64,000 nucleotides of DNA from Candidatus Sericytochromatia bacterium (lineage in GTDB: Bacteria > Cyanobacteriota > Sericytochromatia > S15B-MN24 > JAQBPE01). Shown in pieces: positions 12,530 through 63,623 of the stretch; within the stretch, counting starts at the first letter, position 1, and each line of letters opens with the position of its first letter. The DNA is taken from contig JAYKJB010000067.1 of NCBI GenBank assembly GCA_035285325.1, positions 1 through 64,000 of the forward strand, given 5' to 3'. The position numbers were made by a program, and so were the translations under genes. The notes below the pieces were generated by a model. The model had not been told where the DNA came from, searched no databases, and saw only the letters and a list, made by a program, of their open reading frames with translations.

Positions 12530-13186
12530 ATGGACCCCGTGGCTCCGGTTGGCTCCGTGACCGCTCCGTTGATGAATCTTCCACCATCGCCGGTGGGAAC
12601 GCGCCCGCTCGATCCTGCCGTGTTGGAACGTCTCCCGCCTCCGCCGCCGCGCCCCCGTCCATCCGCCGGGCCGGCCCTTCGCAGGACCCGCCAGGGGATG
12701 GTGGCGGTGGATGGCAATTCGATCTGGGACGGCCTGAATGCGGCAGTGGCCGGTGCCGATGAAACCACCGATTGGCGCCGCGGCACCGATTCGCTGTCTG
12801 AGACCGATCCCACCGAGTCCGCTGCCCGGGCGGAGCGAGCCCGTGCCGCCTGGCGGCGCAAGAACCGAATTGAGACCTTGAGGCAACTCATCGCCAAGCT
12901 GAAAGTCAAGATGGCGACCCTCGGTCTGCGCCTGCAGAAACTGGGCAAGCAATTGGGCGTACTGCAAGGGAAGCTGGCGGTGATGCGGGGCAAGCTGAGC
13001 GCAGCGATTAATGCCAAGGCATCGCCTGAACTGATCGCCAGTCTCAAAGCCAGGATCAAGGGGTTGGAAGACCAGGTGGTGCGCATGACCCAGGACATCT
13101 CGACGGGGGAATATCAGATGGCGCAGTTCACAGAGGCGATGGGGGCCGCCACCACCGAACTGGACGCCCTTCTCGCCGCTGGTTAG
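12530..13186 (+). CDS. Coiled-coil protein with Pro-rich N-terminus, unknown
   Basis: A 218-residue protein. GGGAGGAG lies just before the ATG at 12530. The first 55 residues are rich in Pro and Val; residues about 95-200 form a long Lys/Leu-rich helix with heptad spacing (LRQLIAKLKVKMATLGLRLQ). No signal peptide, membrane segment or known domain is evident, so it is likely cytoplasmic and possibly structural. It ends nine bases before the SMUG1-like gene and might be cotranscribed with it. The preceding gap (12277-12529) contains only a weak ATGGC-TTG-GCCAT inverted repeat. Confidence 0.65.
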   Translation: MDPVAPVGSVTAPLMNLPPSPVGTRPLDPAVLERLPPPPPRPRPSAGPALRRTRQGMVAVDGNSIWDGLNAAVAGADETTDWRRGTDSLSETDPTESAARAERARAAWRRKNRIETLRQLIAKLKVKMATLGLRLQKLGKQLGVLQGKLAVMRGKLSAAINAKASPELIASLKARIKGLEDQVVRMTQDISTGEYQMAQFTEAMGAATTELDALLAAG

Positions 13187-13194
13187 CGACTCGC

Positions 13195-13983
13195 TTGGCT
13201 GCCTCGCATCCGGTATCGCTTGCGCTGCAACAGGCCGCCGCGGAACTGTCCCACGCGGTGCAGGGCTTGTCTTTCGCGCCCCCTGTCACCCACGTCTACA
13301 ACCCCTTGGAATACGCCCGCTCCTGCCACCTGGCCTACCTTGAACGCTACGGGCAGGGTCGCAAGCGGGTGCTTTTTTGGGGGATGAACCCGGGCCCCTA
13401 CGGAATGGCACAGACGGGTGTGCCTTTCGGGGAAATCGCCTCCGTGCGAGACTTTCTGGGGCTCGAACAGCCGGTCGGAGCGCCCCTCAGCCCCCATCCG
13501 GCGCGTCCGGTGCTGGGCTTTGCCTGTCCCCGCAGCGAGGTCTCGGGGCGGCGCTGGTGGGGGGCGATCGCCCGTGCCTTCGGAGACGCCGATGCCTTCT
13601 TCGAGGACCATCTGGTGCTCAACTACTGTCCCCTGATGTTCCTGGAGGCGAGCGGCCGCAACCGTACGCCGGATCAGTTACCGGTTCGCGAACGCGCCCC
13701 CTTGCTGGCCGTCTGCGATCGCCATATGCGGCGGGTCGTGGAATTGCTGGAACCGGCCTGGGTGATTGGCGTGGGCCATTTCGCCGAAGCCCGGGCGCGC
13801 CATGCCCTGGCGGGCATGGCGCTTGGCATCGGCCGCGTCAGCCATCCGAGCCCGGCCAGTCCGGCCGCCAACCGTGGCTGGGAGGCCTTGTTTCTGGAGG
13901 AGCTGGCCGCGCTTGGCCTGAGCCCTGCGGCGGCCGCTCACCAGCCGGTGCGGAAGCTCTCGAGCGGCCCGACCACCTCCTGA
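13195..13983 (+). CDS. SMUG1-like uracil-DNA glycosylase
   Basis: A 262-residue base-excision enzyme. The catalytic-site motif GMNPGPYGMAQTGVPFGE starts at 63 (family form GMNPGPxGMAQxGVPFG), a central LNYCPL strand occurs at about 142-147, and the second motif HPSPASPAANRGW at 217-229 places the catalytic-loop His. These match single-strand-selective monofunctional uracil-DNA glycosylase, which removes uracil and oxidised pyrimidines. The start codon is probably TTG at 13195, without a clear Shine-Dalgarno sequence. The last 46 bases overlap the end of the protease gene on the opposite strand. The C-terminal 30 residues extend beyond the usual domain. Confidence 0.86.
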   Translation: MAASHPVSLALQQAAAELSHAVQGLSFAPPVTHVYNPLEYARSCHLAYLERYGQGRKRVLFWGMNPGPYGMAQTGVPFGEIASVRDFLGLEQPVGAPLSPHPARPVLGFACPRSEVSGRRWWGAIARAFGDADAFFEDHLVLNYCPLMFLEASGRNRTPDQLPVRERAPLLAVCDRHMRRVVELLEPAWVIGVGHFAEARARHALAGMALGIGRVSHPSPASPAANRGWEALFLEELAALGLSPAAAAHQPVRKLSSGPTTS

Positions 13984-15590
13984 CCAGCCGGGCTCACGGC
14001 GTGGACGCGATACTGGTAGATCGTCCAGGGCTTGAGGCCGGCCAGGCGCACCTGCTGCTGACGCCTCGGTTGGCCCCCCTCCGTGGGGCTGCGTTGCTCC
14101 AGCTCTGCGCCTTCGCCGTACCGGACCTCACCTCGGGCGGGCAGGTTGGTGCGCCAGCGAATGCGGGCCCGCGTGCCGGAAGCCATGGCGCGGATCGCTT
14201 CGAGCCGAAGATCGGGTTCGGGCGGGGCGGTGGGGCGGACCACGGGGGTGGGCCGAGGGGCCACCGGGCTGGGCGAGGGCGCTGGTTCCTGCGCGGGGGG
14301 GGTCGGCCGGGGGCTCTCAGGCGTCGGCAGCGGGCTGGGGGAGGGTTCCGTCGTGGGGAGCGGCGTCGGACTGCCCGAGGCGGCCTGCACGGCGGCCCAG
14401 GCGTCGAGGCGGCGCAGCGCGGGGTTGGCTTCGAAACCCCGGACCGGCTGCCCGGTGCTCAGCAGGGTTGAGCGAACCTGTGCCAGGCCCCAGTCTGGTC
14501 GCAGGGCGCGCACCTGAGCCGCCACGGCGGCGACGTGCGGGCTGGCCATGCTGGTGCCGCTCAGCGACACGTAACCGCCGCCGAGCTGGGTGCTGAGGAT
14601 GCGATCGCCGGGGGCGGCGATCTGGACCCAGCGACCGAAATTGGAAAAGCTGGCGCGCGTGTCTTTGGCCGTGCTGGCGCCGACGGACACCACGCCGGGG
14701 TAGGCTGCCGGGTAGCTGAGGCTCTCACTGCCCTCGTTGCCGGCCGCCGCCACCACCAGCACACCGGCCTGCTGGGCCCGTTCGATGGCGGCTCGCAGGG
14801 TCTGGCCATCGGACGAACCGCCCAGGCTCAGGTTGATGACCCGAGCGCCCGCGTCGACGGCGGCGAGCACGCCATCGGCAATGTCGGACATGGCGCCTGA
14901 ACCCTGGGCATCCAGCACTCGGATGGCCAGGATCTTGGCCTGTGGCGCGACGCCGGCCACGCCGACGCCATTGTTCAGGCGGGCCGCGATCGTCCCGGCG
15001 ACGTGGGTGCCGTGCCCCTGCTGGTCTTGCGGGTCGCGGTCACCATCGACGAGGTCGCTGCCGGCCACGATCTGACCCTGCAGGTCGGGATGACGCTGGT
15101 CCACCCCGGTATCCAGCACCGCCACGGTGACGCCGCTGGCCTGGGCCTGGGGCCAGGCCTGTTCAGCGCGGATCGTCGGAATGGCCCACTGCTTGGGCAA
15201 TTGCGGGTCGTTGCTCTCGCTCATGGCAAAGCGGTAGTCGGGTTCGGCCCAGGCCACGGCGGGGTCCTGGCGAAGCGCCCTCAGCAGGGCATCGCGCTGG
15301 GTGAGGCTGCCACTGCGCAGGATTTCGGCCCGGGCCAGGCGCAGTTGGCGCACCTGCTGGGCCAGGGCCCGTGCCCGCGCCTGGCGATCGGCCCGGTAAC
15401 GCACGACCACATCGAGCGGCTCGTCCAACGCTTGCAGGCGATACTGGCCCGCCAGGGGGGGCGTCTTGGTGTCGCTGGCCTGGGCGGGGGGGCGGGCGGC
15501 CGGCAGCTGACCGGGGGCCTGGCAGGCCGTCAATGCCAGCGCGAGGAGCACGGGCAGGCGGTCTCGAAGGAGGGAAACGTGTCGTTGCAT
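13938..15590 (-). CDS. Subtilisin-like serine protease lipoprotein with C-terminal Fn3-like domain
   Basis: A 550-residue surface or periplasmic protease. Lipobox LTAC gives Cys23 as lipid anchor; residues about 50-120 look like an inhibitor I9-type prodomain; the S8 domain carries Asp160 (AVLDTGVD), His193 (GHGTHVAG), oxyanion Asn285 (AAGNEG) and Ser347 (GTSMASPHVA), so the triad is complete. A Pro/Ser/Thr-rich linker (about 405-465) joins a C-terminal fibronectin III-like domain (ARIRWRTNLPARGEVRYG). AAGGAAAT lies about 11 bases before the ATG. It converges on, and overlaps by 46 bases, the DNA glycosylase gene. The likely role is extracellular or envelope proteolysis. Confidence 0.93.
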   Translation of the reverse strand: MQRHVSLLRDRLPVLLALALTACQAPGQLPAARPPAQASDTKTPPLAGQYRLQALDEPLDVVVRYRADRQARARALAQQVRQLRLARAEILRSGSLTQRDALLRALRQDPAVAWAEPDYRFAMSESNDPQLPKQWAIPTIRAEQAWPQAQASGVTVAVLDTGVDQRHPDLQGQIVAGSDLVDGDRDPQDQQGHGTHVAGTIAARLNNGVGVAGVAPQAKILAIRVLDAQGSGAMSDIADGVLAAVDAGARVINLSLGGSSDGQTLRAAIERAQQAGVLVVAAAGNEGSESLSYPAAYPGVVSVGASTAKDTRASFSNFGRWVQIAAPGDRILSTQLGGGYVSLSGTSMASPHVAAVAAQVRALRPDWGLAQVRSTLLSTGQPVRGFEANPALRRLDAWAAVQAASGSPTPLPTTEPSPSPLPTPESPRPTPPAQEPAPSPSPVAPRPTPVVRPTAPPEPDLRLEAIRAMASGTRARIRWRTNLPARGEVRYGEGAELEQRSPTEGGQPRRQQQVRLAGLKPWTIYQYRVHAVSPAGQEVVGPLESFRTGW

Positions 15591-54155: not shown

Positions 54156-55784
54156 ATGAGGCGGCCCTTGGCACTTCTGTCCGACGATCTGGCTGCTCGC
54201 TTCGAGACGCTCTTTCAGGCGTTTCTCGGCTTCGCTTATCACAACCGCGGCGGCCTGGCGACCTTGGCGTTGTATCACCCGCGCGCCATGCTCTCCTGGG
54301 GGGGCAAGGTGGTTCCGGCCTGTGAGATGGACGCGGATTCCTACGGTCTGGCGCTCGCTCAGCAAGCCGACGATCGGGAGCTGGCCGGGGAGGGCCGCTT
54401 CGCGCCGATTTTTGAGCAGGTGCGCCTGGCGGGGGGTGTCCAGGATGGCGAGGAGCGAGCGGTCACCTGGTTCGACGCCCAGGAAATCACCAGCGGGCGT
54501 TCGCTGGCGATTGGAGTGGGGTTCGAATCTCACGAGGGACTCTGGGGGCTGGCGTGGTTGACGCTGGCCGATCATCCTCAGACTTGGAATTTCGAAGCGG
54601 GTCGTGCCCAGGCGATCGCCGATTACCCTTATGCCTTGTCACGCGGCCTGGGTGCTCCGCGCACCTGGTTGGACCTGTCCTGGCACCGCCTGTATGGCCA
54701 TCCCACGCCCGCATTGATGGCTCTGCCAGAGGCCCAGTTCAGCTGTCACGGCTCGGGGACTTGTTGTGACATCCTGTTCGGCGTGGAAGTCGAGGCAGGG
54801 GGCCAGGCCCTGATCGATGCGATTCCCTGGGAGCACGTGCATCCTCCCCTCAAAGGTACGCTGCTGCCCGTGCGGGAGGATGGTCGCCTCCAACTCAAGC
54901 CCGTGGGAGAGACCTGCCGATTCCTCGATGAGAATCGCCACTGTCGTATCCATGCTTACCTGGGGCGCGCCGCATTTCCCGTCTGTTCGCAATATCCCGT
55001 CCGCTGGACCTTCACCCCTGAGGGGGCTGCCATCACGGCTTCCATGATCTGTGGGAGCGCACGAACGCGTCTGGGGCCGCCCCTCGCTTCGCGAGTGGAT
55101 GACATCCACGGCCGGATGGCGCTCTTCCCGGAGGCCTTAAGCCCCCCCTTTCGGCTGGAAGAAGGAGGAAAGGACGACTGGGACGCCTATCGCGAGGCAG
55201 AGGCATTCGTGCTCGAGGTGTTGGCCCGTCGCGATCTGAAGATTGAGCGGCGCCTGTGGCTCGCGTGTCTTTACCTCAGTGCGCTGGATGTGGGGAAGCA
55301 GGCAGATTGGTCGGAACTGGAGTCCGTGGCAGACCCCACCCATCCAGTCGCCCTCTCCACGCGTCTTGGCGTGGTCGAACTGATTGCGTCGCTCATGATG
55401 GACCTGAGGGAGGGGCCACTGGAACTGGCGCCGGATGACCCCGAAACGGAGGACGTCCTTACTTACCTGTGCAGAAGCATCGTCTTCTCCAAACAGTTTC
55501 TGGAACGATACAGTCTGCGAATGGCCCTGAACGTGGCCGCCTTCACGGTCGTACTGGTTCGCCTGATCCGTCGCCGATATCCGGAGGCAGCCTGGAGTGA
55601 TGCCTCGATCCTCGTTCAAGCCATCGGAAAAATCTCCCATGGACCGTTGCTCAACGTGTTGAAACACGCTTCAGAACTCGAGTCGATGCTCGTAGCCCGC
55701 GATTTCACGGCGTGGTGCATCGGAGGGGAGGAACCGCAGCCGGCGGAAACAGCTTCTGCGGAAGGTGAAGCAGGAAGGCTTTGA
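54156..55784 (+). CDS. YkgJ/FliB-like cysteine-cluster protein
   Basis: A 542-residue soluble protein. Its centre holds the zinc/iron-chelating cluster of the YkgJ family: FSCHGSGTCCD (Cys197, 203, 204), CRFLDENRHC (Cys254, 263) and AAFPVCSQYP (Cys277). The same domain makes up flagellin lysine-N-methylase FliB. The 190-residue N-terminal region and the helical C-terminal half are not recognised. The start ATG at 54156 lacks a good ribosome-binding site. Its stop overlaps the next start (TGATG), so the GNAT gene is translationally coupled. Protein methylation of a neighbouring structural protein is a reasonable but unproven idea. Confidence 0.75.
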   Translation: MRRPLALLSDDLAARFETLFQAFLGFAYHNRGGLATLALYHPRAMLSWGGKVVPACEMDADSYGLALAQQADDRELAGEGRFAPIFEQVRLAGGVQDGEERAVTWFDAQEITSGRSLAIGVGFESHEGLWGLAWLTLADHPQTWNFEAGRAQAIADYPYALSRGLGAPRTWLDLSWHRLYGHPTPALMALPEAQFSCHGSGTCCDILFGVEVEAGGQALIDAIPWEHVHPPLKGTLLPVREDGRLQLKPVGETCRFLDENRHCRIHAYLGRAAFPVCSQYPVRWTFTPEGAAITASMICGSARTRLGPPLASRVDDIHGRMALFPEALSPPFRLEEGGKDDWDAYREAEAFVLEVLARRDLKIERRLWLACLYLSALDVGKQADWSELESVADPTHPVALSTRLGVVELIASLMMDLREGPLELAPDDPETEDVLTYLCRSIVFSKQFLERYSLRMALNVAAFTVVLVRLIRRRYPEAAWSDASILVQAIGKISHGPLLNVLKHASELESMLVARDFTAWCIGGEEPQPAETASAEGEAGRL

Positions 55785-56744: not shown

Positions 56745-57494
56745 TCAGCCTGTTGAATTGAATCCGCTGCGGGACCGCTCGGATTCGAGGCGCTGGGTCG
56801 GCGTGTGAGCTTGGCCGGGAAACAGGGACTGTTTCGCCAAACTGAGGGCCTCCACGCCCTCTGGAATGAGTTTCAGGGCGGTGTGGACCCGATAGGCCAG
56901 ACCCGAGAGATGCGGCACCTTGAGGGCCTTGAGGAGGGTCAAGCGAGTGGCTCCATCTTGGGTGTTCGACAGCTCCGTCAAGCGGGTCTCAGACTGCCGC
57001 AGTTCTTCCTCGAGTGTTCCCACGTCCGTCACAAATCGCTCCCAGGCTGAACGTCTTTGAGGGTCTGCCAGCCAGACTTGCTGCTGGGCAGACCAGGATG
57101 CTGGTGCACGGCTTTGCTTGCCCTCCAGGCCCGCTTTCACCCAAGCACGCAGTGCCCTGAAGGTATGCATATCGAGCTCGATCGTACGAAGTTTGATTTC
57201 GAGGTCATTGGCCTCGTACTGAGCGGTTTTGGTGGCAACCGGGGGTTCGTAAAGATTGGAATCGAGAGGAAAGGCCGCCAGGTTCTCCAAGGCAACCATC
57301 AGCAGCCGACGCTGGAGGCGCAGGATGGTGGCCGATTGAGGCGTCAGGTTGCGCTCGGAGAGGGCTGCCTCCGTCCCCGCCAACAGCGTTTGATAGTCAT
57401 CGCGCTGCTTGGCCAGTTGCATCTGGGCCTTGTGATAACTGCGAGCCAAGTCTTGCCAAGAGGCCAGTTCCTCCGGTGTCAACTTCCTTGGCAT
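56745..57494 (-). CDS. Coiled-coil protein, last gene of the small-helical-protein cluster
   Basis: A 249-residue soluble protein, Gln/Leu-rich and almost entirely helical (LARSYHKAQMQLAKQRDDYQ, ILRLQRRLLMVALENLAAF, EEELRQSETRLTELSNTQDG). No signal, membrane segment or recognised domain. GAGAGG/GGAG lies before the ATG, 12 bases after the stop of the upstream coiled-coil gene, so they are cotranscribed. A chaperone or structural role in the putative secretion/filament module would suit, but this rests only on position. Confidence 0.62.
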   Translation of the reverse strand: MPRKLTPEELASWQDLARSYHKAQMQLAKQRDDYQTLLAGTEAALSERNLTPQSATILRLQRRLLMVALENLAAFPLDSNLYEPPVATKTAQYEANDLEIKLRTIELDMHTFRALRAWVKAGLEGKQSRAPASWSAQQQVWLADPQRRSAWERFVTDVGTLEEELRQSETRLTELSNTQDGATRLTLLKALKVPHLSGLAYRVHTALKLIPEGVEALSLAKQSLFPGQAHTPTQRLESERSRSGFNSTG

Positions 57495-57506
57495 CTCCAG
57501 ATCCTC

Positions 57507-58568
57507 TCAGTTCTTGAAGATGGAGCGCAGGCGCTCTCCCAGGGTGTTCGAGCCCGGAGAGGCTGATTTCGCGGCGCCTGGCGCGCCAAGATCAGGGTCA
57601 TCTGGCGAGAGGGAAACCAGGATCTGGCGAATTTGGGGATCGATCTCGCTGTTTTCGAAGGCCAGCGTATCGGCCAGAGGTTGATTATCGTCAAGCGCCG
57701 CCAAGGCGCGACGGACCAGATAGACCTTGCCCGCCAGCTGGCGCAGGCCACCCGTCGACTCTTCCATTCCCCGCGCCAGTTCGCCCGGCGAGTCTCCCCG
57801 AAGCGCGTCGACTGCCAGCTCCACATCCGCTACCCGGTCGTACAGCACCCGGAGCTTCTGACGCCCCTCGTCGGTCGTCACGTAGGCGTTGAGGTTCCCT
57901 GCCAGCCTGTCCTCTCCGAGGTCGGTATGGCCTGGCTGGGGGCCTGATGGGCGGCGTGACAGACCAGGTGGCGGGGGCGCCCCGGGCCCCGGAGAACGCG
58001 GGGCGACACCCGGGCGAGGGGGGAGCCCGGGACGAGCGGGAAGGGCCGGCGTGGGTCTCGGCGCAGAGAGAGAACCGGTTTTCCCCTGCGGACCGGGCGG
58101 CTTCGCCCCTGCTTGCAGGGCTCCCGTTCGCGCAGGCCCGCGGCCCTCAGGGGCGGAGGCTGGGGCCTGGATGAGACCCAAGGCCACGCCCAAGGCGCGA
58201 CGCACCGGTTTGTAGCGCGCAAGATTGGCCTCGATGCAAATGAACTGGGTGTACAGGGCCAGTTCACCGATCTGCTGTTTGATGGTCGCAGGAATCGGCT
58301 TCTGGAGGTCGAGGGCATTGATGGCCTCGGCCATCTGCAGGTTGGTTTCCGCCCCGCGAAACCGCAATTCGACGGAGAGCAGCTTCGCATCTCGCGTTTC
58401 GGAGGCGGGTTCATTCAGCAGGCGTTCGCGCTCGAGCTTGATGTGGTCGTATACCGCCTTACATTGCGCGAGGGTCGTACGAATCGCCTTGGCCGTGGTG
58501 AGGAGCTGTTGCTTGGTTCTTTCGAGTTCAGCCTCAACTTGCTTGAGGCGTGCCGAGTGATCCTCCAT
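57507..58568 (-). CDS. Coiled-coil protein with Pro/Gly-rich middle, helical-protein cluster
   Basis: A 353-residue protein: an N-terminal coiled coil (1-70, SARLKQVEAELERTKQQLLT), a helical segment to about 130, a Pro/Gly/Arg-rich linker (about 140-215), then a helical C-terminal domain (RQKLRVLYDRVADVELAVDA) and a short basic tail. GGAGGGG stands just before the ATG. It lies 30 bases downstream of the 75-aa inner-rod-like gene. It could bind or gate other members of the module; no family is recognised. Confidence 0.6.
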   Translation of the reverse strand: MEDHSARLKQVEAELERTKQQLLTTAKAIRTTLAQCKAVYDHIKLERERLLNEPASETRDAKLLSVELRFRGAETNLQMAEAINALDLQKPIPATIKQQIGELALYTQFICIEANLARYKPVRRALGVALGLIQAPASAPEGRGPARTGALQAGAKPPGPQGKTGSLSAPRPTPALPARPGLPPRPGVAPRSPGPGAPPPPGLSRRPSGPQPGHTDLGEDRLAGNLNAYVTTDEGRQKLRVLYDRVADVELAVDALRGDSPGELARGMEESTGGLRQLAGKVYLVRRALAALDDNQPLADTLAFENSEIDPQIRQILVSLSPDDPDLGAPGAAKSASPGSNTLGERLRSIFKN

Positions 58569-58598
58569 GGATACCCCTCCTCACGTGGGCCATTATCC

Positions 58599-58826
58599 TC
58601 AGGGCTGCAATTGCTGGATGTTGGATATCATGATGTTGACGAGGTCGACGGCAAATTGCAGGTCGATCTGTGCCTGTCCCATCGTGACTTGCATCTGTAA
58701 CAACTCAGGGGACGTGGTCGAGCCGTTGGTCGCCTTTTCCACGGTATCCAGAGCCTTGCGGCTCGCATTCTGCTGAAAGGATTGGCTCGTTCTCAGTCCC
58801 GCGGCGACAGCAGCATATACGCTCAA
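58599..58826 (-). CDS. 75-aa helical protein resembling T3SS inner-rod / FliE C-terminus
   Basis: I start at the TTG at 58826 because AAAGGAG lies seven bases upstream; the longer frame adds a non-conserved tail. The C-terminal half (SPELLQMQVTMGQAQIDLQ, then FAVDLVNIMISNIQQLQ) has the amphipathic pattern of type III secretion inner-rod proteins (PrgJ/YscI) and of the flagellar rod protein FliE: an acidic-polar cap, LLxxQ, then an alternating helix with a central Val-Asn and a C-terminal Gln/Leu end. Length fits. A computed profile comparison is needed; I rate this as pattern resemblance only. Confidence 0.5.
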   Translation of the reverse strand: MSVYAAVAAGLRTSQSFQQNASRKALDTVEKATNGSTTSPELLQMQVTMGQAQIDLQFAVDLVNIMISNIQQLQP

Positions 58827-58980
58827 AACCAGACTCCTTTCGTCCTTGCCCCCATATACCCGACGGCCAATTCGAACTATCGCGAAACCGGGATGCTGGG
58901 CCGTTTCCGGATCGGCGGAGGGCAAGTAAAGCGGGGGCCAGCTGGCGCTAGCCCCCGGACTTCACATTCAGTTGAGCTGC

Positions 58981-59232
58981 TTACCGGACGGTGTTGGCAG
59001 CCTTTTGCGCTTCACGCAGCTGTTCCCGAAGTTCCTTCAGGGAATCTGCCCGGCGCTTGAGGTCTTCCAATTGCACCTGGAGTTTCATCAGGGTGGCTTG
59101 GTCCGTGCCCTTTGAAATCTGGTTACCGATATTCTGCATTTCGGTGTTGATTTCGCCTTGCACCTTGGCGAGGTTCTGGGCCGATGCCAGGAAATCTTGC
59201 TGGTTGCTGCTGGTGCTAAGAGGGGTTCCCAT
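58981..59232 (-). CDS. 83-aa two-helix protein resembling a T3SS needle subunit
   Basis: A strong AAGGAGG lies nine bases before the ATG. The protein has a Ser/Thr/Gln-rich polar start, helix 1 (DFLASAQNLAKVQGEINTEM), a short polar turn with Lys-Gly-Thr-Asp, and helix 2 (TLMKLQVQLEDLKRRADSLK) ending in basic residues. Needle subunits such as PrgI/MxiH are 80-83 residues with the same helix-turn-helix plan and an L..xQ..L helix after a P/D-rich turn. No cysteine, signal peptide or membrane segment. A coiled-coil cytoplasmic protein is the alternative. Confidence 0.5.
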   Translation of the reverse strand: MGTPLSTSSNQQDFLASAQNLAKVQGEINTEMQNIGNQISKGTDQATLMKLQVQLEDLKRRADSLKELREQLREAQKAANTVR

Positions 59233-59388
59233 ATCGACTATCCTCCTTGTTGAGACCTTGACACTGGAGCGCTTGGTGGGCGCTCAGCCGCGCTACACAA
59301 TCGTTATATACCGCTGGGGGGTCTGAAACCTGTTTGACTTAATGGACTTTTAAAACTTAGCGAATGATCTGGAGATGGGCCCGGGTGA

Positions 59389-60564
59389 TCAGGGGCGTGG
59401 AGGCGAAGCCAGGATCTGCTGAATGGCCGCCTTGGCGGACTCCTGCGCCTGGATGGTGCGGCCAGGGTTCTGAGAGACCGCAAGCAGGTGGCGGAGGGTA
59501 TCCATCTCTCGTGCGCCCATCTGGCCGAGCAGCTGGCAAGCTCCCACGATGGTCTCGGAGCTGGTTTGGGTCGCGATGTGGGTCACCAGAATTCGCACCA
59601 CTTCTTGTCTGAGCGGGCTGTTGGCACGAGGGTCCGGCCCGAGAGCGGCGCGAATCTGGTTCAGAGCCGCCACGCCCGATCGGGTGTCGCGATTGAGCTC
59701 GAACTCCAAGGAGCGGAGGTAATCGGGCGTGACCGCAGGACCAGCGGCTGCAACACCCGCCTGGTTGCGCTGGTTGTTCATCTGCACAATCAGGTTGACC
59801 GCCGTCTGATTCACTTCCAAGGGGTAGCCCGGCGACCGCTGAATCATTTCCAGGTAAGGCAACAGTTGGGGATTCTGGAAAGAGGCCAGCGCAACTAGCG
59901 CCTCCTTCACGCTGGCATCCCGTTGGTGATAGGCGTGATTGAGCAGGAGGTTGTAGACGGGTTCCTTGTATTGTGGGTTGCTCTGCGACAGCGCCATCAG
60001 CTGGCGAATGGCGTTGACGGAGGCCTGTCCTCCATTGCCGAGTTCCGCTTGGGCCCGCTCCATCAGGAACGGGGCGTCGGCCGGGTTGGGGGGCGCGATG
60101 CCCGGGTTGTAGGTCGGTGCCGGCATGGCCTGCTGTGGCGGCATGACCGCAGCTTGAGGGAAAGCCTGCTGGGCGTAGCCGGGTGCGGCCTGAGGGGATA
60201 CCGGTTGTTGCGCCATCTGGCCCATCACGCGCATGGCTTCGTTGGCCAGTTGGATCACCTGGGGATCTTGCCCGGGGGCGGCTACCATGGCCTGTAGGCG
60301 CGGAATGGCGTCCTGGGGCGGCATCTTGGTCAAGCTCACGATGGCGCGATACCGATCGCTCACGTTGGGCGACTGCATCATCTGATCGGTCTGTTGTAAC
60401 AACCTGGGGTCGACGCCCGTTCCCCCGATGGGAGAGGCAATCGATAGCTGGTCACCCGCAATGGAGGGACTGGTTGTTCGGTTTGATTGAGTCGACTGCT
60501 GGAACAGGCGAAACTTGGAAATGGTCCCGTGGTTGACCCCGCTCGAGGCGGTAAAGTCCGTCAT
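59389..60564 (-). CDS. HEAT-like alpha-solenoid protein
   Basis: A 391-residue soluble protein starting at ATG 60564, GGAGGG eight bases upstream. After a Ser/Thr/Gln-rich N-terminal 60 residues come helical pairs of HEAT/ARM type (SDRYRAIVSLTKMPPQDAIP, SVNAIRQLMALSQSNPQYKE, VKEALVALASFQNPQLLPYL). A Gln/Pro/Ala-rich linker (about 120-165) divides the solenoid. HEAT proteins act as scaffolds or chaperones. It stands between the 90-aa protein and the needle-like protein and could be their scaffold or chaperone. Confidence 0.68.
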   Translation of the reverse strand: MTDFTASSGVNHGTISKFRLFQQSTQSNRTTSPSIAGDQLSIASPIGGTGVDPRLLQQTDQMMQSPNVSDRYRAIVSLTKMPPQDAIPRLQAMVAAPGQDPQVIQLANEAMRVMGQMAQQPVSPQAAPGYAQQAFPQAAVMPPQQAMPAPTYNPGIAPPNPADAPFLMERAQAELGNGGQASVNAIRQLMALSQSNPQYKEPVYNLLLNHAYHQRDASVKEALVALASFQNPQLLPYLEMIQRSPGYPLEVNQTAVNLIVQMNNQRNQAGVAAAGPAVTPDYLRSLEFELNRDTRSGVAALNQIRAALGPDPRANSPLRQEVVRILVTHIATQTSSETIVGACQLLGQMGAREMDTLRHLLAVSQNPGRTIQAQESAKAAIQQILASPPRP

Positions 60565-60603
60565 GAAAATTCCCTCCAACTGACCGGCCTGGGAGAACGG
60601 TGC

Positions 60604-60876
60604 CTACCGGCCCGAGAGCCCCACCGCATGAATGGCATCTTTCGCTTCTTTCAGGGCGCGCAAAAACGCTGCCATCGCCTCGCGATAGCGACCCGGTTCT
60701 TCTTGCGCTTGTTTCTGACCCTGCGTGCGCAGATCCAGCCCCAAGAACTGATTGGGAATGCCGAATCCGGCGATATGAACCCCCCCGACGTAGCTCGCGT
60801 CGACCGCGGATTTGTCCAGTCGCTGCGCGTTCTGCGTGAGTTGATCGATCATGGCGTTGGGCTTGATGGTACTCAT
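60604..60876 (-). CDS. 90-aa protein, first gene of the helical-protein cluster
   Basis: AAGGAGGT six bases before the ATG is a near-perfect ribosome-binding site. The protein has a short helix start (IDQLTQNAQRLDKSAVDASY), a Gly-rich strand (GGVHIAGFGIPNQFLGLDL) and a C-terminal helix with Arg-Glu-Ala repeats (REAMAAFLRALKEAKDAI). No family is recognised. The 158-base gap upstream contains AT-rich sequence (about 60920-60985) and probably the promoter of the whole minus-strand series. Confidence 0.6.
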   Translation of the reverse strand: MSTIKPNAMIDQLTQNAQRLDKSAVDASYVGGVHIAGFGIPNQFLGLDLRTQGQKQAQEEPGRYREAMAAFLRALKEAKDAIHAVGLSGR

Positions 60877-61034: not shown

Positions 61035-62807
61035 TTACCTGTATTGCCAGATGTCGCCATTCGCACCGACGCCGAAGCCGCGAAAGCGGGGCGGCGTGGC
61101 AGTGAGGTCATAATTGATCTGAAAGGCCGAGATCGTCTGGGGTGAGAGGTCGTCGCGGCGCCACGTCTGGCCTCCATCCTTGGTGTCGTACACCCGTCGC
61201 GAGGACAGGAAGACATTGTTGGTGTCGACGGCCGAGATGTCGCTGATGCTGGACACCTCGAAATAGGCTCCGTTTCCGTTCGCCTCGCGGTTGCGATACA
61301 AGTAGGCCTTGCTGCGCGTGAAGGTGGGGGTGTCGCTCTGGGCATTGCTGGAACGGTAGAGCGTCCCGCCCGTGGTCCCGATCCACAGCCCATTGGCATC
61401 GACGTGGCTGATGGCGGAGGCTTCCCCGTCGCCCACATCCCCTTTGAGCACCGGTTCGGTTTCGACGGCCGGTCCACCGACCGTCAAGGTTTGCACCCGG
61501 CGCCAGCGCAAGGCCGGTGTGGGGTGGTCCACGTCCAGTTTGAAGATGCCGTCGCCGACGAAGTAGAACACCGTGCTGTCGCCCGTCAGCCCCGTGCCGG
61601 CTGCGATCTTTTTCGGCCAATCAAACGGACGGTCGGCCGGGAAGGTTGGCTGCTTGACCCACGAGTTCCGCACGCCCGAGGCGTCCGTCAGGTTGGCTGA
61701 CTCGGTCCGGAAGCAGTTCCCCAGGAAATCACAAAAGGTGATCTTCTGCTCGTTCGTCACGACCATGGCGGTGATTTTGCCAGGGATTTCCCGCGGGCCG
61801 ATCTGTTCCCAGGTTCGTCCTTCGTCCTTGGTCCGGAGGACACTTCCGTCGCCGCACGCGACAAAGCCCACGCTGTCGCTGACAAAGTGAATCTGCAGGA
61901 CGTCCGCCGTTCCGATGCCGGTGTTGCGCAGTTCCAGCGTGGGGGGATCTTTTTCTGTGCCCTTGGTGGCGTCGTAGAACAGCACGCTGCCGGTGCCGCC
62001 ACCGAACCAACCACGCTCGTTCTTGGGGAGGTGGAGGCAATACCAGTTGGGCCGTACGGGAATCTTGCTCGGTGCGTAAAGAAACCAATTTTCCGCAGGC
62101 GGCACCGGGACGTCCGGTTGAGGGGGCGGCGGCGACGCGACTGGACGGGGTGAGGGGGGCAAGATCTGAGGCGGCGGCGTCAGGGTGGGGGCCGCGATGG
62201 GTTGCAAGGGGGGGACCAGGATGGCGGGGGCTGGCACGGGGGTGGACACAGGTTGCTGAAACGGTGCGGCCGTTGGAGAGGGAGAGGCCGGAACCGCGTT
62301 CGGGTTAAGGGGCACGATGGGAGGATTGGGGGCCACGTTGAGCGGAGACGGCAACGCAAAGGCGCCAGCTGCCTGGGCGTTGCGAACTGACAGGGAGACG
62401 GGCTGAAGCGAGATGCCCCCCTGGTTGGCAACCTGCCCCTGCGGATTGACCGTGAACGACTGGTTGCCCGCGACCTTGTTGCCGGTCCCGTTATCCACCT
62501 CCACCAGGGCCGTGTAGGTGCCCGCCGCAGCCGGCACACGCCAGGAAACGGACCGGCCGGTGGTCTGGCTCAAATCACCGCCGTTGACCTGCCAGCGGAA
62601 GCTGAGCGCACGGTTGCGGGGGTCGGTGGCACGAGCGGTCAGCAGCACGAAGCGATCGCCTTGGTTGACCAGGTCGATGCCAGCCAGTTGCGGTGCCTCT
62701 GAGGCGTTTGCGGTGCTGACGCCAGTCCCCGTGGGGCTTTCCTCCGCACACGCCGCCACCCCCAGCAGCAAGGAGACGAACCCCAAGGTCACAATACAGC
62801 GACGCAT
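61035..62807 (-). CDS. Ycf48/BNR-like beta-propeller lipoprotein
   Basis: A 590-residue lipoprotein (VAAC lipobox, Cys20). Residues about 30-115 are an Ig-like/PKD-type beta-sandwich (SFRWQVNGGDLSQTTG, VEVDNGTGN); a Pro-rich linker runs to about 235; and the C-terminal 350 residues have propeller-blade motifs of the Ycf48/BNR type (GRTWEQIG, GDGSVLRTKDEG, VYDTKDGGQTWRRDD). Photosystem-assembly Ycf48 has the same fold, but photosystem genes are absent, so a general surface or secretion role is likelier. It begins six bases after the flagellar-family gene stop, implying one operon. Confidence 0.8.
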   Translation of the reverse strand: MRRCIVTLGFVSLLLGVAACAEESPTGTGVSTANASEAPQLAGIDLVNQGDRFVLLTARATDPRNRALSFRWQVNGGDLSQTTGRSVSWRVPAAAGTYTALVEVDNGTGNKVAGNQSFTVNPQGQVANQGGISLQPVSLSVRNAQAAGAFALPSPLNVAPNPPIVPLNPNAVPASPSPTAAPFQQPVSTPVPAPAILVPPLQPIAAPTLTPPPQILPPSPRPVASPPPPQPDVPVPPAENWFLYAPSKIPVRPNWYCLHLPKNERGWFGGGTGSVLFYDATKGTEKDPPTLELRNTGIGTADVLQIHFVSDSVGFVACGDGSVLRTKDEGRTWEQIGPREIPGKITAMVVTNEQKITFCDFLGNCFRTESANLTDASGVRNSWVKQPTFPADRPFDWPKKIAAGTGLTGDSTVFYFVGDGIFKLDVDHPTPALRWRRVQTLTVGGPAVETEPVLKGDVGDGEASAISHVDANGLWIGTTGGTLYRSSNAQSDTPTFTRSKAYLYRNREANGNGAYFEVSSISDISAVDTNNVFLSSRRVYDTKDGGQTWRRDDLSPQTISAFQINYDLTATPPRFRGFGVGANGDIWQYR

Positions 62808-62813
62808 GGGCGG

Positions 62814-63623
62814 TTACCGGATCAAGTTGACGGTATCGTCCACCGTTTTGTTGAACTCGGTCAGCATATCCTTGAAGATCTTGTAGGTTTGGGTCGCGGT
62901 GAAGGACTCTGCCTGGTGAATGGTCAGCCAACCCACCCGATTGGGCGTTTCGATCGAGCGGGGCTGAACGAAACCCACATTCGGTTGTCGCCCGTTAGGG
63001 AAGGCGCTGATGGGCCCGGAGAGGGGCGTGACGGCGTAGGTGGTCGTGCCGAAGCCGCTGTTGCCGAGTTGGCTAGCGTCCGGAACGGTGGCCAGGGAGA
63101 CCGTGGTCAGGTCCACAGATCCATTGCCCGGGTTTCGGATCAAGGGGGGGGGACCGATGGTGCGTCCATTCGCGTCCAGCGCTACCCGGCCTGATCCCCC
63201 GATCACAAACAGGCCGTCCCCGTTGACCAGGCGTCCCTGCCCATCATAGCGAAACGAGCCGTTGCGGGTGAGATGAACGCGTGCACCGGGGCGGTCGTTC
63301 TCAGCAACCATGAAGAATCCAGGCCCCAAGATGGCCAGCGAGGCTGGGTTGTCGGCCGGGTCAATGGTTCCCTGTTCAAAGTTCAACGAGGTGCCTTGGA
63401 GCGCCAGGGTGTCTCCCCCGCGACTGAAGGCGCCTTGAGAGCCCGCTTGCTGCGTGGCTTCAGCGGCAGCGCCGCGGGTGGTGCCCCCGGTCGAGCCGAT
63501 GTGAAGGCGGCGTCGGTTGTAGCCCGGCAGCAGCAACCCTTGCATATTCTGCACCAGGTTTTGCTGCATCGCGTCGATGGCCCGGAAGCCCGCGAGCACG
63601 CCGTAATGAAAGTTGGAGCTCAT
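62814..63623 (-). CDS. Flagellar basal-body rod/hook family protein (FlgF/FlgG-like)
   Basis: A 269-residue protein. The N-terminal AIDAMQQNLVQNMQGLLLPGYNRRR corresponds (in part) to the rod-protein signature in which an Asn-rich loop precedes xPGY/F; LNFEQGTIDPADNPASLAIL, GFFMV and LTRNGSFRYDGQGRLVNGDG are the central D1-type signatures; and the C-terminus (IHQAESFTATQTYKIFKDML, NKTVDDTVNLIR) is the closing helix. Axial proteins of this family build flagellar rod and hook. No other clear flagellar gene lies in the window. The start ATG is at 63623. Confidence 0.88.
   Translation of the reverse strand: MSSNFHYGVLAGFRAIDAMQQNLVQNMQGLLLPGYNRRRLHIGSTGGTTRGAAAEATQQAGSQGAFSRGGDTLALQGTSLNFEQGTIDPADNPASLAILGPGFFMVAENDRPGARVHLTRNGSFRYDGQGRLVNGDGLFVIGGSGRVALDANGRTIGPPPLIRNPGNGSVDLTTVSLATVPDASQLGNSGFGTTTYAVTPLSGPISAFPNGRQPNVGFVQPRSIETPNRVGWLTIHQAESFTATQTYKIFKDMLTEFNKTVDDTVNLIR

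Follow-up and report, generated by a model that had tools for sequence, protein, structure and literature searches.

We analysed a window of 64,000 nucleotides, part of contig JAYKJB010000067.1 (C67) in the 3.83 Mb draft genome (98.6% complete; G000) of a Candidatus Sericytochromatia bacterium. This organism belongs to the class Sericytochromatia, which are non-photosynthetic Cyanobacteriota. Between positions 63623 and 56745, eight successive minus-strand genes encode a hook/rod-family protein, a lipoprotein, a protein of 90 amino acids (aa), a HEAT protein, an 83-aa protein, a 75-aa protein and two coiled-coil proteins, here called cc1 and cc2. An earlier note on this DNA had proposed that the last six of them (60876-56745) could constitute a secretion or filament module; all six are open reading frames (ORFs) at these coordinates, and the Shine-Dalgarno (SD) sequences listed below are good. 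The features of the cluster are:

62814-63623, minus strand: hook/rod axial protein of the A6 family (hereafter A6), 269 aa; PF22692 (D1 domain) above cut-off; lineage-specific
61035-62807, minus strand: large lipoprotein, 590 aa, with PKD-like and YCF48/BNR-like repeats; lipobox-like ...LLLGVAAC; PF14870 above cut-off
60604-60876, minus strand: small protein, 90 aa, with a predicted C-terminal helix; strong SD
59389-60564, minus strand: HEAT-repeat solenoid, 391 aa; HEAT_2 (PF13646) at 29.7 bits against a Pfam cut-off of 27.7
58981-59232, minus strand: predicted helical hairpin, 83 aa, of needle-like size and layout (AlphaFold2 model)
58932-58957, minus strand: intrinsic-terminator-like hairpin 3' of the 83-aa gene, with an 11-pair stem followed by a T-rich tail
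58599-58826, minus strand: predicted helical hairpin, 75 aa, with a FliE/SctI-like C-terminal helix; TTG start, the frame being open further upstream
57507-58568, minus strand: coiled-coil protein cc1, 353 aa; orthologs in G001, G003, G006, G004 and G007
56745-57494, minus strand: coiled-coil protein cc2, 249 aa; G001 has a homolog in the same position

The SD sequences read AAGGAGG for the 90-aa and 83-aa genes, AAAGGAG for the 75-aa gene and GAGGAGG for the first coiled-coil gene. Two readings of the earlier note, a HEAT-like solenoid and an axial-family gene upstream on the same strand, are borne out by family scores above cut-off. The lipoprotein is probably located in the outer membrane, judging from its lipobox-like signal, and cc2 has no significant Pfam family. 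The number of terminator-like sites in the region is not above that in shuffled sequence.

The cluster and its conservation are well supported. The genomes compared with G000 include G001 from a sister genus of the same family and G006 from another family. In G001 the order is axial gene, lipoprotein, HEAT-like gene, 90-aa homolog, HEAT gene, 83-aa homolog, 75-aa homolog, cc1 and cc2, which amounts to full synteny, with the two HEAT-type genes lying on either side of the 90-aa homolog. Other families of the order keep this arrangement in part. In G006, ~9 kb hold the axial gene, an 83-aa homolog, cc1, a lipoprotein and a 90-aa-like gene, while in G004 and G007 a lipoprotein, a 90-aa-like gene and cc1 are clustered with the axial gene. 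The axial gene of G003 is separate from the rest; a different contig of this genome carries the 83-aa ortholog, immediately upstream of cc1.

Individual members of the cluster are unevenly distributed. Eight further genomes of the order have orthologs of the axial protein, which is the most widely kept member, and a lipoprotein of this general kind lies beside or near it in G001, G006, G007, G004 and G008 (as read from translations, with NHL in G004). Homologs or likely homologs of the 90-aa protein occupy the same neighbourhood in G001, G006, G004 and G007. The 83-aa protein has homologs in G001, G006 and G003, adjoining cc1 in the last two. G006 encodes three copies of it, two at the cluster and one elsewhere, whose proteins are identical and whose nucleotide differences are all synonymous. 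This pattern, together with the synteny in G001, indicates that the cluster is more than a chance assembly, and its conservation across relatives shows that the module is real and under selection, but modular and unevenly kept. Recurrence of the gene order in relatives was a check set beforehand, and it came out positive, in full for the sister genus and in part for the other families.

We further note two kinds of gene that accompany the module. A Cys-containing protein of 542 aa without a Pfam family is encoded at 54156-55784 of the window, and likely homologs, recognised by reading translations, flank the module in G001 and G006. Genes judged by eye to be von-Willebrand-D-like lie near the module in G000 (L018:7547-9607, on C67 just past the end of the window) and, as two interspersed genes, within that of G006 (L028:11557-12504 and 12765-14093).

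The earlier note had seen no export genes in the window, which agrees with our own observations, and had placed the rest of the apparatus elsewhere; export genes are indeed located elsewhere in G000. Two export systems of flagellar type are present in nearly every genome of the class. FlhA-type genes occur in 17 of the 18 class genomes and fall into two clades, A and B, with full support (final tree, without antisense ORFs). Two FliP genes are present in nearly all class genomes, two FliF genes in most, and two full FlhB genes mostly. System A in G006 includes FliM/N, MotA/B-like, FliI-like, FliE and FlgE proteins and corresponds to a normal flagellum; the flagellum of G000 is complete-looking. 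System B is encoded at two loci:

Locus B1: FlgF, FlgG, FlgA, FlgH, FlgI, FlgJ, a sigma factor, FlgB, FlgC, FliE, FliF and FlhA
Locus B2: FlgD, a hook-like protein, three SPOA-domain proteins, FliO, FliP, FliQ and FliR

Family searches covered FlhA-B, FliF-B, FliP, FliQ, FliR, the FliN-like protein, FliE, FlgD and the hook-like protein of these loci, and the remaining names were assigned by reading translations. FlhA-B scores 756 bits as FlhA (slightly under the cut-off of 772) versus 579 as SctV, and for FliP, FliQ and FliR of system B the flagellar models likewise outscore the injectisome models.

The FliF protein of system B carries the middle domain of FliG at its C-terminus. PF14841 is above cut-off in all four sequences tested, with neither FliG_N nor FliG_C, and matching tails are present in all full-length FliF-B sequences that we read. 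Canonical FliG occurs at most once per class genome (beside FliF-A in G000), and no second torque-domain FliG that could serve system B was found in G000. The fusion is absent from 39 genomes outside the class that have flagellar genes and represent many phyla: the FliF-B query matches ordinary FliF in most of them, and a match to the tail, where present, is a separate FliG-sized ORF adjoining FliF. We regard it as well supported that the class has a second export system of flagellar type in which FliF is fused to FliG_M, and from its domain content system B seems to be non-rotary, with a torque-less base. Weaker FliG_C matches, which are unexplained, lie inside ORFs of ~700-760 aa in five genomes (G003:C13, G004:C20, G005:C4, G007:C229 and G008:C4) and in none of G000.

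G000 also holds additional FlhA and FlhB copies. A third FlhA, of A type, opens the B2 locus (C54:29-2137, L009), and another A-type copy is truncated at a contig end (C102 end, L012); the third copy could reflect a lineage duplication or an assembly issue. Four paralogs match FlhA mainly over its cytosolic C-terminal domain (C5:64686-67477, C19:17670-18779, C65:1960-2589 and C21:1917-2438; L013, L015, L016 and L017). Two of these paralogs lie beside PilT-like or GspE-N-like genes, and the one on C21 adjoins a weakly cc1-like coiled-coil protein (E-value 0.025). A separate C-terminal FlhB fragment (profile positions ~262-335) exists besides full FlhB, in G000 at C102:37680-37898 and with equivalents in most class genomes.

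The link between the window and system B comes from A6. With 34.3 bits against PF22692 (cut-off 27), A6 is a member of the hook/rod family (FlgE/F/G). In the axial-protein tree, which has long branches, A6 and its orthologs group in a single clade with the hook-like proteins of locus B2 (support 100/98), apart from FlgE, FlgF and FlgG, and the same clade is recovered with support 100/100 after the addition of 25 proteins from other phyla. Forcing A6 together with FlgF is rejected by the approximately unbiased (AU) test (p-AU 0.021). The identity of A6 with FlgF itself is ruled out by this tree and by its score against TIGR02490, which at 66.8 bits (E-value 2e-18) falls far under the cut-off of 178.5. 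In G006 a gene of the YjfB_motility family adjoins FliR-B, and in G003 another lies upstream of the 83-aa ortholog and cc1. That the window's axial protein belongs to system B is moderately supported. The suggestion of the earlier note that the gene set forms or services an axial structure is therefore plausible, because the lineage of the neighbouring A6 is linked with a second export apparatus of flagellar type; the needle and inner-rod roles that came with it are inferred for the 83-aa and 75-aa proteins.

These two proteins had been likened to needle subunits and to rod or FliE proteins, respectively, and the likeness is suggestive only. AlphaFold2 models both as helical hairpins, the 83-aa protein with helices at 8-40 and 45-82 (predicted local distance difference test score, pLDDT, 79) and the 75-aa protein with helices at 3-35 and 40-73 (pLDDT 71), from shallow inputs of three and two sequences. 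A two-helix hairpin of ~70-90 aa is a trait of the needle protein SctF that the 83-aa protein shares, although the feature is generic. The needle family PF09392 does not match the 83-aa protein of the window. Among 24,736 Pfam families it is the top match of the G003 ortholog (E-value 0.0054; 17.3 bits against a cut-off of 29.4; profile positions 8-69 of 71), which we take as suggestive and not as proof, because other helical families score close behind and PF09392 also matches weakly in control genomes. Across 18 genomes nothing exceeds the PF09392 cut-off, and the one suggestive small-protein match is this ortholog upstream of cc1. For the 75-aa protein, the sole Pfam match is the YscI inner-rod family PF17001, at 19.0 bits (E-value 0.0019) against a cut-off of 32.4. 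The FliE-B protein of G000 scores about the same against this family (18.2 bits), and a class-wide six-frame search with it gives four matches, three at FliE-B genes and one partial within a larger ORF, without recovering the 75-aa gene of the window. The FliE family PF02049 does not match the 75-aa protein.

We favour the explanation that the cluster is an order-specific axial or extracellular module of system B, together with its helpers, and put its probability at about 0.5. According to this model, system B would build a non-rotating tube through the envelope, of which A6 would form or cap a part. The 83-aa hairpin would be exported as an abundant filament or needle-type subunit, with the 75-aa hairpin as a FliE/SctI-like adaptor, and at the outer membrane the lipoprotein may serve to anchor or decorate the structure. 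HEAT, cc1 and cc2 would act as cytosolic chaperones, HEAT perhaps as a chaperone or adaptor. Candidate biological roles are secretion, adhesion and cell-cell contact.

Several observations weigh against this explanation. In G000 no physical linkage joins the module to the genes of system B, and in G005, where A6 and FliP-B share a contig, they are ~41 kb apart, with no closer linkage. The AU test does not reject a grouping of A6 with FlgE (p-AU 0.087). The G000 assembly yielded no full FlhB-B, though relatives have one. Flagellin genes adjoin FlhA-B, one in G000 (L010:15409-16398) and two in G001 (L112:2498-4462), and system B could therefore carry a flagellin filament. The 75-aa protein is seen only in the two genomes of family f1, and its ortholog, at the same place in G001, does not match PF17001. 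Profile-profile searches, which the earlier note had proposed, and fold searches returned nothing significant for the small proteins against needle or rod families. With either hairpin model, Foldseek against the PDB finds nothing under an E-value of 0.001; the 83-aa model comes closest in fold to the FliJ/SctO-like CdsO (E-value 0.16, 14% identity, not significant). Sequence searches of the PDB yield generic coiled coils and flagellin and no solved needle for the 83-aa family and its G003 member, and no match for the 75-aa family, and hhalign comparisons of the 75-, 83- and 90-aa families with FliE and with one another are not significant.

Some of these observations would fit a module that serves the ordinary flagellum of system A, in which A6 would be an additional variant of the hook/rod proteins and the small helical proteins would be export chaperones or regulators. 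A6 is, after all, a hook/rod-family protein in a genome with a complete-looking flagellum, its grouping with FlgE survives the AU test, and the resemblance of the 83-aa model to a FliJ/SctO-like fold, albeit not significant, points the same way. The unconstrained trees, on the other hand, join A6 to the hook-like proteins of system B at 100/98 and 100/100, and its placement with FlgF is rejected. Moreover, class genomes outside the order contain no clear A6 though flagellar and system B genes are present there. We therefore consider a role in the ordinary flagellum unlikely.

A true injectisome needle complex, in which the 83-aa and 75-aa proteins would be SctF and SctI by descent, agrees with the size and hairpin layout of the two proteins and with the families that come up for them, PF17001 as the sole match of the one and PF09392 as the top match of the G003 ortholog of the other. 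All of these scores are far under the family cut-offs, however, the needle model that misses the window's own 83-aa protein weakly matches control genomes, and no solved needle is matched. The gate proteins of system B score as flagellar, and its flagellum-specific genes are kept. Descent from needle-complex proteins is accordingly quite unlikely. Non-flagellar type III secretion systems (T3SSs) are defined as having the core secretion genes without the flagellum-specific genes (Abby and Rocha 2012, PMC3459982). System B is not a non-flagellar T3SS by this definition because flagellum-specific genes are present, FlgB, FlgC, FliE and more at its locus, and with gate proteins that score flagellar its classification as an injectisome is ruled out; it may nonetheless work like a non-flagellar T3SS.

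A surface lipoprotein or adhesin locus with cytosolic coiled-coil helpers, no type III tie and the axial gene as a chance neighbour would account for a lipoprotein that stays near A6 in most genomes and for coiled-coil and HEAT proteins, which are common, but it is quite improbable given that the axial gene is the most widely kept member and is part of the full synteny in G001.

Returning to a module of system B, we can extend this explanation to the origin of the system, more tentatively. System B might be a flagellum without torque that has become a non-rotary type III machine, independently of the known injectisome lineage. In one order it would have acquired a hook-like protein of its own together with a needle/rod-like pair, as a living flagellum-injectisome intermediate; we hold this to be possible, though doubtful at present. 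Injectisomes are held to have a flagellar ancestor and to have lost flagellum-specific genes (Abby and Rocha 2012, PMC3459982). If true, system B, with rods and rings still in place, would be a further case of this kind of change, in which flagellar and needle-like features occur together, and the order of events in the flagellum-injectisome transition would become testable. Non-photosynthetic relatives of cyanobacteria would also gain an unsuspected secretion or contact organelle. In the papers available to us we found no description of a comparable system from Sericytochromatia. The hat-shaped inner-membrane structure tied to the flagellar T3SS was considered as well, and nothing in the part of the source available to us (PMC9380563) connects it to this gene set.

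Among known systems, the 75-aa protein resembles FliE/SctI (PF02049/PF17001) in the pattern of its C-terminal helix and in a PF17001 score equal to that of FliE-B, and differs in falling below the cut-off, in lacking a PF02049 match and in an hhalign comparison with FliE that is not significant. The FliJ/SctO protein CdsO is the best fold match of the 83-aa model, but the match is that of a generic antiparallel hairpin.

With injectisomes, the module and system B share neighbouring genes for small hairpin proteins as long as needle and rod subunits, and an apparently non-rotary base; they differ in a gate that is flagellar-type by score, in the retention of flagellum-specific genes and in small proteins whose sequence scores stay below the SctF and SctI cut-offs. 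With the flagellum, system B shares FlhA, FliP/Q/R, FliF, FliE, FlgB, FlgC, FlgF, FlgG, FlgH, FlgI, FlgD and a hook-like protein, and A6 is likewise of the hook/rod family. It departs from the flagellum in a FliF fused to the FliG middle domain only, with no second torque-domain FliG found, in hook-like and A6 proteins that form a family of their own and in the extra small helical proteins. The likely partner of the module is a system of flagellar type, whose base is unusual and apparently torque-less, and not a classical injectisome.

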